Part shown: piece after piece, positions 26,408 to 34,469 of the stretch
Position numbering within the stretch: position 1 is the stretch's first letter
Layout of the letters: each line of letters starts with the position of its first letter
Source of the DNA: Acidimicrobiaceae bacterium
GTDB taxonomy: Bacteria > Actinomycetota > Acidimicrobiia > Acidimicrobiales > RAAP-2
DNA length: 40,059 bases
NCBI GenBank assembly: GCA_947447225.1
Contig: CANFJV010000006.1
Coordinates: forward strand, 1-40,059
Direction: 5' to 3'
Translations under genes and position numbers: made by a program
Notes under the pieces: model-generated
Told to the model about the DNA's origin: nothing
The model's input: only the letters and a program-made list of their open reading frames with translations
Database searches by the model: none

Positions 26408-29511
<3,104 letters not shown>

Positions 29512-29565: not shown

Positions 29566-31623
29566 ATGCCAACCCCTAGCGACGCCATCGGAACGATGCT
29601 CGACGGTCGCTATCGACTCGTCGCGCTCTTAGGAAGTGGGGCACACGCCTCGACCTATCTCGGCGATGACGTCTCCTTGCAACGCCAAGTTGCTGTTCGC
29701 GTCCTCAACGAAGAATTCGCCAGCGATCAAAGTTTCCGGGAGCGGTTCGCGGCAGAAGCTCGAGCAATTGCTGGCCTCAGCCACCCGTCGATTCTTCGGG
29801 TTTATGACTGGTCCGATGACCCAGAACATGCCTTTGTCGTCCTCGAGTACGTCCAAGGTGGGTCACTTCGAACCTTGCTCAACCTTCATGGAATGTTAAG
29901 TGTGAGCCAAGTGGTTGCCATTGGCATTCAGGCAGCCCGAGCACTTGCCTCGGCTCATGCTTCGGGGATCACGCATGGCGCCATGAAGCCGGCCAATTTG
30001 CTTTTTGATGCTGATGATCGACTGCGGCTCACCGACTTCAGTCCAATTGAAGGGCCAAAAGATCCCTTTGCCGTTGGTGCATCTGCACTCGACGCCGACC
30101 GCGCTCGCTACGCCTCACCGGAAGAAGCACTCGGTGCTCCCGTTGACCAGCGGGCTGACGTGTATGCCCTTGCCCTTGTGCTGTATGAAGCAGCAACGGG
30201 TTCACTGCCCTTTGAAGCGAGTTCTCCCATTGCCACATTGATGGCTCGCGTTGGCATGGCGCTGCCACATCATCCAGCGCTTGGACCACTTGACCAGATC
30301 TTGGCCTACGCCGCTGCGCCCGATCCTGATGCGCGCATTGATGCCACGACCTTGGCAGATCGCCTTGAAGCGGTTGCCGCAACCATTGTTCCGCCAGGTC
30401 CACTCAATCCGGCCGCTCGACCAACGCCGACCCTGTCGAGCGAAGGTACAACGGTCATGGTGGCGCCAACCTTTGGCATTGCCGATGCCCCGGTGACGTC
30501 CACGCCAACGGGCACTACTGCAGCGGTGGCGACGACGGTCCTTGGCGCAACAACGATTGGCTTTACTGCGCCGTCCGCGTCAGAGCTCACTGGTGCGGTT
30601 CCTGCAGTAACAACGACGGCGTTCCAAGCAACCGGTGTTTTGACGGCTCCACAAGGAACGGTCTTTGGTGAGACAACGAACGTTGGCAACGATGCCAACG
30701 CGACCGAAGACTTCTTTGAAGAGGAGAACCGAAGGCGTTGGCTGTGGTGGGTACTCGCAGCAATTCTCGTCTTCGCCTTGGCCGCAGGTGGAACCTACGC
30801 CGTGCTGCAGAACCTCAAAAAGGTCGATGTGGCGGTGCCGGGCGTCGTTGGAGATTCAAAAGAACAAGCAGCCAGTGCACTTGGCATTGCCCAGCTAACG
30901 GTGACCTACGCATCGGGCAGCTACTCGGTGACGATCCCGAAAGACCAAGTCATTGCGCAAGACCCGGCCCCGGGAACCATGGCGAAACAAGGAAGTGCCG
31001 TGACACTTCGCCTGTCGCTTGGACCGCCGCTTGTGACGGTTCCGGCAGTACTTGGACTGAGCTGCACGGCGGCCGAAGACAAATTGGCCACTGCATTGTT
31101 GTCCTCGTCATGTCCAACGTCGGCTGCGACGTATTCCGCCACGATTCCTCCTGGTCAAGTGGTGAGTTACAGCGTTGATGGGGTGACCAATCCAGCATCG
31201 GTTCCACAGGGTGCAGTGGTGCTCTTGTCGGTGTCAAGTGGCACTGCGCCAACGGCGGTGCCAAACGTTGCCGGCCAAACCGAAGCTGCGGCCAAAGCCA
31301 CCTTGACTGCTGCTGGTTTCACGGTGACGGTTGGGTCGGAGTACTCGAGCACGGTTGCCATCAATTCGGTGACTCGGACAATGCCTGCAGCTGGCAGTGC
31401 CTTGTCATCAGGCTCCGCAATCACGATCTACTTATCGACTGGGCCTGCGCCGGTCACGGTGCCAAACCTGGTTGGAAAGTCTGGCCCTGATGCGGTGAAG
31501 GCCTTGTCCGACCTCGGCTTGTCACCAAATGTGATTGGCACGGGATCTGCCGTGTCGATCCAAGACATCCCCGCTGGCACCACCGTTCCCGCCGGCACCA
31601 CCGTGACGGTGACGCTCGCATGA
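29566..31623 (+). CDS. Membrane Ser/Thr pseudokinase with four extracellular PASTA domains
   Basis: A 685-residue PknB-like protein. The kinase-like domain (about 15-275) has a degenerate Gly loop GSGAHAS. Arg45 replaces the ATP-binding Lys (VAVRVL). The catalytic loop is HGAMKPANLL (137-146), so the HRD Asp is Ala139 while Lys141 and Asn144 remain. DFS (157-159) replaces DFG. Glu64, SPEEA and DVYALALVLYEAATG are kept. Two essential residues are therefore lost. A Thr/Ala-rich linker (280-380) precedes a transmembrane helix (about 392-410) and four PASTA repeats (about 422-486, 489-558, 562-627, 629-685). PASTA domains sense peptidoglycan or lipid II. Likely a non-catalytic envelope sensor or scaffold. 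Near-leaderless start; the next gene overlaps by 4 bp. Confidence 0.88.
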   Translation: MPTPSDAIGTMLDGRYRLVALLGSGAHASTYLGDDVSLQRQVAVRVLNEEFASDQSFRERFAAEARAIAGLSHPSILRVYDWSDDPEHAFVVLEYVQGGSLRTLLNLHGMLSVSQVVAIGIQAARALASAHASGITHGAMKPANLLFDADDRLRLTDFSPIEGPKDPFAVGASALDADRARYASPEEALGAPVDQRADVYALALVLYEAATGSLPFEASSPIATLMARVGMALPHHPALGPLDQILAYAAAPDPDARIDATTLADRLEAVAATIVPPGPLNPAARPTPTLSSEGTTVMVAPTFGIADAPVTSTPTGTTAAVATTVLGATTIGFTAPSASELTGAVPAVTTTAFQATGVLTAPQGTVFGETTNVGNDANATEDFFEEENRRRWLWWVLAAILVFALAAGGTYAVLQNLKKVDVAVPGVVGDSKEQAASALGIAQLTVTYASGSYSVTIPKDQVIAQDPAPGTMAKQGSAVTLRLSLGPPLVTVPAVLGLSCTAAEDKLATALLSSSCPTSAATYSATIPPGQVVSYSVDGVTNPASVPQGAVVLLSVSSGTAPTAVPNVAGQTEAAAKATLTAAGFTVTVGSEYSSTVAINSVTRTMPAAGSALSSGSAITIYLSTGPAPVTVPNLVGKSGPDAVKALSDLGLSPNVIGTGSAVSIQDIPAGTTVPAGTTVTVTLA

Positions 31624-31941: not shown

Positions 31942-31971
31942 GTGAACAACATCGAGGCAGAGGAGAGTCCC

Positions 31972-32850
31972 ATGGGCGCACTTGACGGTCGGGTAGCAAT
32001 CATCACTGGTGCAGGTCGAGGCATTGGCCGCGAGCACGCGCTGTTGTTCGCAAGCGAAGGGGCAAAGCTCGTCATCAACGATCTTGGCGGTGCGGTTGAC
32101 GGTTCGGGTGACGACCGCGGCGCGGCGCAACAAGTTGCGGACGAAATCGTTGCCCTCGGTGGCGAAGCGATTGCCAACACTGACGACATTGCCTCCTGGG
32201 ATGGTGGCAAGCGCCTAATTGACCAGGCCATTGAGCACTTTGGCGATCTGCACGTATTAGTCAACAATGCCGGCATCTTGCGCGACCGCGTGCTCATCAA
32301 CATGTCAGAAGACGACTGGGACTCGGTCATTCACGTCCACTTGAAGGGTCACTTCGTGCCTACCCGTCACGCTGCCGCTTACTGGCGTGAGCAGACGAAG
32401 AATGGCAAAGACGTCAAGGCCAGCGTCATCAACACGTCGTCAACCTCGGGCCTTATTGGCAACCCAGGTCAGTCCAACTACGGCGCAGCGAAGTCCGGAA
32501 TTGCCTCGTTTTCGCTCATCATCGCAGAAGAGCTCAAGCGCTATGGCGTGCGCGTCAACGCCATTGCACCTGCTGCTCGTACTCGGATGACTGAGTCGAC
32601 ACCAGGTCTCGCCGACATTGTTGCCGCTCCTACTGATGGCGCGACCTTCGATGCGTGGGACCCTGCAAACGTCTCACCACTCGTTGCCTACCTTGCGACC
32701 GAATCGTGCCCCGCAACTGGTCGAGTGTTCTTCGTCCAAGGCGGCACCGTTCGTGCGTTTGAAAACTGGTCGATGACTGACCGGATTGAAAAGGACGACC
32801 GCTGGACCGTGGCCGAGTTGCAAACCGAGATGGCCAAGCTTCAAGCGTGA
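31972..32850 (+). CDS. Short-chain dehydrogenase/reductase
   Basis: A 292-residue classical SDR. The cofactor motif TGAGRGIG is at 12-19, NNAG at 98-101, and the catalytic residues are Ser157 (NTSSTSG), Tyr170 and Lys174 (SNYGAAKSG). NDLGGAVDG after beta-2, with an acidic residue, suggests NAD preference. The sequence resembles the dehydrogenase part of peroxisomal multifunctional enzyme type 2 and actinobacterial homologues acting on 3-hydroxyacyl-CoA or steroids, so a lipid alcohol is the likely substrate (inference). Start at ATG 31972 with ribosome binding site GAGGAGAG. It overlaps the MFS transporter gene by 4 bp (GTGA), so export or import of a related compound is conceivable. Confidence 0.88.
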   Translation: MGALDGRVAIITGAGRGIGREHALLFASEGAKLVINDLGGAVDGSGDDRGAAQQVADEIVALGGEAIANTDDIASWDGGKRLIDQAIEHFGDLHVLVNNAGILRDRVLINMSEDDWDSVIHVHLKGHFVPTRHAAAYWREQTKNGKDVKASVINTSSTSGLIGNPGQSNYGAAKSGIASFSLIIAEELKRYGVRVNAIAPAARTRMTESTPGLADIVAAPTDGATFDAWDPANVSPLVAYLATESCPATGRVFFVQGGTVRAFENWSMTDRIEKDDRWTVAELQTEMAKLQA

Positions 32851-34469
32851 GCGAGGACGACGCGTCCTCCCCTCAGGAGCACCACCGAGCATCGGTCGAC
32901 AACCCAGACGACCTCTTTAACGCCACCAAAGATCCTGGAGCAAGTGCGCTCGGTGGCGCGGGCACTGAAGCAGCAACAGACCTGCCGTGGTTTGAGTTGC
33001 TTCGCCATCGTGTTGGCGTGCGCGCCGCAAAGAGTCCGAAATATCAGTGGTGGGTCTTGCGCTCGCTGCTTGCTGGACTGCTCGCGCTCAACTTCACCTT
33101 CACGGTCTTCAACATTGTTCTGCTGAAAGTCAGTAACGACTTCCACACCTCAACAACGGTGCTTGGCTGGACGCTTACCGGACCGTTGCTTGCCTTTGGG
33201 TTGGCAGCACCAATTTTCGGTCGAGCAAGTGACGTGTTTGGCCATCGTCGGCTCTACTTGTTTGGGCTGATGGGCGCCATGGTGTCCGCAGTGCTGACCT
33301 CATTTGCGGTCAACGCGCCAATGCTCATTGCGGCGCGGACCTTAGATGGCATTCAAGGTGCGGCCACGGCAACGGCCTCTATGGCGCTCATCAACAAGGT
33401 CTTTGCCAAAGAAGACCGAGTGAAAGCCCTTGGTTGGTGGTCACTTATTGGCGCAGGTGGACCAGTCGTCGGCATCACGGTTGGAGCGCCAGTGATTGTT
33501 GCCGTGGGCTGGCGCGGGTTGTTCTGGGTGCAACTGATCTTGCTGGCAATTGCCTATGCCGTGGTGTCGACCATCATTCCAAAGTCCATCGACAAAAAGA
33601 GCGAAGGAGCAAAAGAGATCTCGTGGGCGGGGATGGACTGGATTGGCAACTGGTCACTAATGGCTGCGGTGCTTGGCACCATGCTTGGCCTCACGATGTT
33701 GGAGCATCACGCCGTAACCTCACCGCTTGAATTGACGCTGTTTGGCATTGGGCTCCTCGGTGCGGTGGTGTTTGTGTATCAGCTCACCCATTCTCCTCAT
33801 CCGCTCATCCCGAAGCGCTACTTCACCACTCGGAACTTTGTGTTCCCCATGGTGATTCGCTCTACTGCAAACTTTGCCTACTTCTCCGGTTTTGTGTTGT
33901 TTCCGATTTTGATGTCGGTTGTCTACCAAGCATCGACCGCCCAAATCGGCATCTACTCAATTCCTCGACCAATTGTCTTTGCCATTGCGTCGCCCATTGC
34001 GGGTTACGCCGCGGTCAAATTTGGTGAACGTTCCACCACGATTCTCGGTTCGCTCGCGCTGTTTGGTTCACTTGCGGTCTTTGCCTTTGCCGCTGCTGGG
34101 ACTCCGGTGTGGGTATTGATGGTGGGTCTCGGCCTGTCAGGAATCGGCATGGGCATGGCCATGCCGGCGACCTCGGCCACCATGGCCAATGAGGTCGAAG
34201 AGCATGAATATGGCGTGATGTCTGCTGCCGGGCTTATTGCCACCCAAGTGGGTGAAGTAGCCGGCATCACCATTGTGATGGCGATCCAAGCAGCCAAACA
34301 GCGCGCCCTTCCCGCCCATCCGACCCAAAGTCAGTTGGTCTCGACCTTTACCTTGCCCTTCATCATCGCTGGAGCAATGGCGGCAATTGGTGTGGTGGCC
34401 TCGCTGTTCATGCGATCCATGGATCGCTCGAAGCCAGCACACCTAGAAGAGCCCTCGGTCGAGTTTTAA
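32847..34469 (+). CDS. MFS transporter, DHA2-like (drug/H+ antiporter type)
   Basis: A 540-residue major facilitator. An acidic cytoplasmic N-terminus of about 70 residues precedes many hydrophobic helices. The loop 2-3 signature is present as GRASDVFGHRRLYLFG. A helix-rich mid part has GWWSLIGAGGPVVGITVGAPVIVAVGWR, the motif-C-like antiporter stretch, and GWRGLFWVQ follows as in DHA2 drug exporters. The length suits 14 membrane spans. The substrate is unknown. Translation is coupled to the SDR gene by a GTGA overlap. The TAA stop interlocks with the stop of the convergent aminopeptidase gene (TTAA at 34466-34469), leaving no room for a terminator. Confidence 0.86.
   Translation: MSEDDASSPQEHHRASVDNPDDLFNATKDPGASALGGAGTEAATDLPWFELLRHRVGVRAAKSPKYQWWVLRSLLAGLLALNFTFTVFNIVLLKVSNDFHTSTTVLGWTLTGPLLAFGLAAPIFGRASDVFGHRRLYLFGLMGAMVSAVLTSFAVNAPMLIAARTLDGIQGAATATASMALINKVFAKEDRVKALGWWSLIGAGGPVVGITVGAPVIVAVGWRGLFWVQLILLAIAYAVVSTIIPKSIDKKSEGAKEISWAGMDWIGNWSLMAAVLGTMLGLTMLEHHAVTSPLELTLFGIGLLGAVVFVYQLTHSPHPLIPKRYFTTRNFVFPMVIRSTANFAYFSGFVLFPILMSVVYQASTAQIGIYSIPRPIVFAIASPIAGYAAVKFGERSTTILGSLALFGSLAVFAFAAAGTPVWVLMVGLGLSGIGMGMAMPATSATMANEVEEHEYGVMSAAGLIATQVGEVAGITIVMAIQAAKQRALPAHPTQSQLVSTFTLPFIIAGAMAAIGVVASLFMRSMDRSKPAHLEEPSVEF

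Follow-up and report, generated by a model that had tools for sequence, protein, structure and literature searches.

A conserved PASTA receptor with a predicted kinase-dead domain in an Acidimicrobiaceae bacterium

Introduction

Among the kinases with which Gram-positive bacteria sense peptidoglycan, the PASTA kinases are the main ones, and they have been studied as enzymes. Animal pseudokinases of the HER3/KSR type carry a dead kinase domain beside an active paralogue, and dimerisation with that paralogue is their proposed mode of action. In PknB of Mycobacterium tuberculosis the PASTA repeats bind muropeptide or lipid II, and activation is linked to the dimer (PMC6428115). Bacterial pseudokinase families are also known (PMC12599244): ActPs2 has Arg at the β3 Lys position, Asn in place of the HRD Asp, a DFG deletion and, in most members, inserts of 32 and 250 aa; ActPs3, to which MviN belongs, has VALT, no DFG and a deletion in the activation loop; and the DYD pseudokinases combine a β3 Arg with loss of the αC Glu. 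MviN is fused to MurJ and, in mycobacteria, is phosphorylated and docked by an FHA protein (PMC12599244). A literature search of limited extent for a lineage of PASTA pseudokinases found none.

The protein described here is encoded in a stretch of 40,059 nucleotides from an Acidimicrobiaceae bacterium (GenBank assembly GCA_947447225.1, contig CANFJV010000006.1), referred to below as the window. It shares with PASTA kinases of the PknB/StkP/PrkC type the kinase fold, the linker, a single transmembrane helix and the C-terminal PASTA repeats, but it lacks the catalytic residues, scores 393.3 bits on the corresponding profile (NCBIfam PknB_PASTA_kin, NF033483), under the curated cut-off of 450, and is linked to ligA rather than to a pstP-pbpA operon. 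The genome's own active paralogue, PknB, scores 573.5 bits on the same profile. By the features listed in their descriptions (PMC12599244), the window protein matches neither ActPs2 nor ActPs3. With the former it shares the β3 Lys-to-Arg replacement and a C-terminal transmembrane helix; however, its HRD Asp is replaced by Ala, a DFS motif is present, no such inserts occur in the alignment with PknB-type kinases, and its PASTA repeats have no noted ActPs2 counterpart. Set against ActPs3, it has VAVR, DFS and PASTA repeats and no MurJ domain, and unlike the DYD pseudokinases it keeps the αC Glu. The analogy with MviN drawn in the initial annotation therefore survives for function only, in that both would be non-catalytic kinase-fold domains in an envelope pathway; the protein is not of the MviN type, and the genome's own MurJ was found to have no pseudokinase domain. 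The arrangement of a dead beside an active kinase may be likened to that of the HER3/KSR-type pseudokinases, to which the lineage is unrelated.

Results

The open reading frame at 29566..31623 (this and all features given below lie on the + strand) encodes a protein of 685 aa in which a kinase-fold domain, a linker, a transmembrane helix and PASTA repeats follow each other, as in PASTA Ser/Thr kinases. It matches the Pfam Pkinase profile with 108 bits, and Pfam, AlphaFold2 and structure matching place the domain at residues 8–275 (29587..30390). The transmembrane helix, at about residues 392–414 (30739..30807), was read from the sequence as a hydrophobic run after RRR, and profile matches located four PASTA repeats within 30829..31620 (30829–31017, 31033–31236, 31255–31440 and 31453–31620), in agreement with what had initially been annotated. 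By synteny, the gene has conserved neighbours in ligA upstream (27463..29511; named from sequence and context, with no family search) and, downstream, a short-chain dehydrogenase (SDR, 31942..32850) and an MFS transporter (32847..34469), both named from sequence. Positional orthologues in the family stand in the order mnmA-ligA-[PASTA kinase]-SDR-MFS within the extent of the retrieved stretches. The SDR gene accompanies the kinase gene across the family, and its product shows 97% and 99% identity and dN/dS of 0.01–0.02 in the closest pairs.

Fold prediction, which the initial annotation had proposed as a check, returned a complete two-lobed kinase fold (AlphaFold2, mean pLDDT 87) from an input alignment of 13 sequences, mostly distant viral-contig kinases. 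The model is weak only at activation segment 163–174 and at its C-terminal end. Its nearest solved structures are PknB and PknA of M. tuberculosis (Z 32), and superposition on PknB gave Z 32.4 over 252 residues.

Residue equivalences were assigned by alignment with M. tuberculosis PknB as the reference. Both catalytic replacements noticed at the outset are borne out: strand β3 reads VAVR instead of VAVK, with R45 (29698..29700) at the position of PknB K40, and HRDVKPAN has become HGAMKPAN, so that H137-G138-A139 (29974..29982) correspond to HRD 136–138 and the catalytic Asp is replaced by Ala139. Where a PASTA Ser/Thr kinase requires its catalytic Lys and HRD Asp, the protein thus has R45 and A139. 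The HRD Arg and the GT of the activation segment (VGTARY, here DADRARY) are gone as well. The αC Glu (PknB E59) is kept as E64, again as first annotated, in all five genomes of the genus, and PknB K140 and N143 as K141 and N144; E64, N144 and D157 are common to all five species of the genus and K141 to most. The degradation initially ascribed to the DFG motif and the Gly loop holds in part. D157-F158-S159 (30034..30042) has lost the Gly alone and retains the metal-binding Asp157, and the loop, GSGAHAST, retains both glycines (G23 and G25), but V25 is replaced by T30 and the A-S-A pattern of live orthologues has disappeared. The alignment was also inspected for a displaced Lys or Asp, which the initial annotation would have taken as a refutation, and neither was found: the N-lobe (residues 1–95) is devoid of Lys in four of the five species, which excludes a displaced Lys in those four, and at residues 130–160 Asp occurs only at 148, 150, 151 and 157. 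With the β3 Lys and the HRD Asp gone, the fold kept and the orthologous copies alike, the sequence bears the marks of a pseudokinase, and the protein is predicted to be a kinase-dead receptor.

The window genome (2.04 Mb, 91% complete) has two kinases, the window protein and an intact PknB on contig 29, the latter among the things that the initial annotation had suggested looking for. The same losses are found in five of five genomes of the window genus (g1), at protein identities of 55–84%, which rules out an assembly error and a strain-private change, the latter having been named in that annotation as a case against a dead kinase. The same orthologue is also dead in other genera. In genus g10 this applies to 62 of 62 sampled genomes, differently from the window genus: the HRD Arg is lost in all 62 and the Asp in 56, K140 is replaced by Ser in 51 and N143 by Lys in 49, E59 is mostly lost, DFG has become mainly DVA or DIA, and the β3 Lys is retained in 54. 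Every sampled g10 genome has this remodelled dead kinase at the same place (loci L079, L080 and L111–L168).

These comparisons bear on whether the protein could still be an active kinase with an unusual mechanism. Nucleotide and metal binding would be possible with E64, N144, D157 and, mostly, K141 kept in the genus, and Arg can stand for the β3 Lys in some nucleotide-binding pseudokinases (PMC12599244). Nevertheless, activity is very improbable: the catalytic Asp is Ala, the N-lobe has no Lys in four of five species, the activation-segment GT is gone, and g10 has lost most of the remaining residues too. The protein is also unlikely to be a non-phosphorylating switch in which binding of ATP, not its hydrolysis, sets the binding state; E64, N144 and D157 in all five species and the two loop glycines speak for it, but the g10 copies lack N143 and mostly E59, so such nucleotide binding is not common to the dead forms.

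In other genera, the orthologue is intact in about 60 genomes. Exceptions are G006 (g7), which reads HSAITP; G019 (g19, sister to the window genus), where Lys, Asp and DFG remain but the HRD Arg and the GT of the activation segment are missing; and G072 (L089), where VAIK is replaced by VASQ and no other motif is affected, perhaps through a sequence error or local frameshift. Across the order, about 70 genomes have it intact: it is so in 26 of 27 further first-hit loci, a count that leaves out a 28th, again from a g10 genome, and in 40 of 40 others. Further dead copies are linked to ligA in G249, G212 and G174 and were found without visible ligA linkage in G240, G199 and G253, many of the compared genomes being fragmented drafts in which this linkage is unreadable where a contig ends or the retrieved range cut the locus. 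Dead PASTA kinases from further families of the order sit at L216, L263 and L258, all three linked to ligA, and at L257, L260 and L249. Genomes are smaller in lineages that carry the dead form (median 2.0 versus 3.2 Mb; Mann-Whitney p 0.013, on rounded sizes and with kinship ignored).

In the tree of neighbour genes, g19 is grouped with g1. Next to g10 stands g18, which is intact, and close by are g14, also intact, and g7, which is mostly so. The dead and intact states amount to four changes on this tree, and a topology uniting g1 and g10 in one clade was rejected on the neighbour genes (AU p=0.007), which excludes one shared origin for the dead state of these two genera; catalysis has therefore been lost repeatedly. 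The state in g19, a single genome, suggests that the activation segment and the HRD Arg went first and that Lys, Asp and the DFG Gly followed later.

The dead domain is under strong purifying selection. Its dN/dS is 0.04 in the pair G000/G049 and 0.01 in G029/G041, against 0.075 and 0.065 for LigA, and it lies below that of LigA in every comparable pair; g10 pairs gave 0.03–0.17 versus 0.02–0.10 for pairs of intact orthologues. The individual values are rough, since several pairs have a dS close to 1 or higher, but the pattern is consistent. Within the window genus no part of the protein is more constrained than the kinase domain; the linker, transmembrane helix and PASTA repeats are looser. 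The domain of the active PknB gave even lower values in this genus (0.019 and 0.007). Repeated loss of catalytic residues, more often in small genomes, is what a decaying gene might display; against this, the frame is open in all five species and the domain, with dN/dS of 0.01–0.04 in the closest pairs, is the part most constrained. Because its dN/dS matches that of intact orthologues and is lower than that of LigA, the gene is not decaying, and pseudogene decay retains a negligible probability.

Apart from one motif, GFxxPSxxEL with close variants, the Thr-rich linker is unalignable. In the window protein sequence comparison identified the motif as TIGFTAPSASELTGAVP (residues 330–346, 30553..30603), and it was found in five of five g1 and 56 of 62 g10 genomes, where shuffled linkers lead one to expect 0.03 and 0.43. 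It looks like a capped docking helix. Some catalytically intact orthologues have the motif too, and it is thus older than the loss. A DNA pattern search located its strict form at one place in the window genome, and a looser form gave no hit around murJ or in the stretch of the PknB operon. Besides the window, the motif occurs at loci L049–L052 and L079–L168.

PknB was read in 35 genomes, 26 of them g10, and its motifs were intact in all 35 (34 full length, one a fragment). In the window genome the operon is fhaA-fhaB-pstP-pbpA-pknB, with gene names assigned from domain and order; C16 encodes a third FHA protein, and one PP2C was found. In the pstP-pbpA-pknB operon at L169:2997-7967 no rodA separates pstP from pbpA, and pknA is absent. 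These genes leave some room for a role mainly as a phosphorylated docking platform, in which PknB would phosphorylate the Thr-rich linker and an FHA protein would bind there. Such a role would suit the FhaA, second FHA protein and PstP of the PknB operon, the FHA protein on C16, the abundance of Thr in the linker and a MurJ without a pseudokinase domain, in which the mycobacterial docking site is consequently absent. We nonetheless consider it doubtful: no conserved Thr in an FHA-type context was seen, linker identity is only 29–42% between the more distant species of the genus, and in g10 the conserved motif lacks an invariant Thr.

Alignment showed R10, L33, R35 and D76 of PknB to be retained in 100% of the dead copies of g1 and g10. 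R10, L33 and D76 are PknB dimer residues, L33 and D76 being the sites mutated in the PknB structures 3ORI and 3ORM. Since g10 likewise keeps 30 of the 73 other invariant positions at a level of at least 95%, this three-of-three retention is weak evidence, and the residues may be kept for the fold alone.

Discussion

The protein probably signals by binding and not by phosphorylating, because its dead domain is as tightly conserved as the domain of relatives that still work and the genome also has an intact sister kinase. We favour, with moderate confidence, a dead PASTA receptor that acts in this way and has PknB as its likeliest partner. The PASTA repeats would read the state of peptidoglycan outside the cell, as the PknB family suggests, and partner proteins would be bound on the inner side by the short linker motif and the preserved kinase fold. 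The single intact PknB of the genome could be engaged through the back face of the N-lobe that is used in PknB dimers, and the pseudokinase might tune its activity or its placement. The decoy for an active PknB that the initial annotation had envisaged has nothing specific in its favour, and our second choice of role would be the scaffolding of an FHA or division protein.

A wider proposal is put forward tentatively. With catalysis lost several times independently in one order, the receptor may regulate the active PknB by heterodimerising with it, binding rather than phosphorylation being the function selected in this second receptor; it could then be a bacterial counterpart of the animal receptor pseudokinases. 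A receptor orthologue in which catalysis was lost repeatedly, with its fold under full selection beside an intact PknB, provides a natural set in which phosphorylation-independent functions of PASTA receptors can be tested directly.
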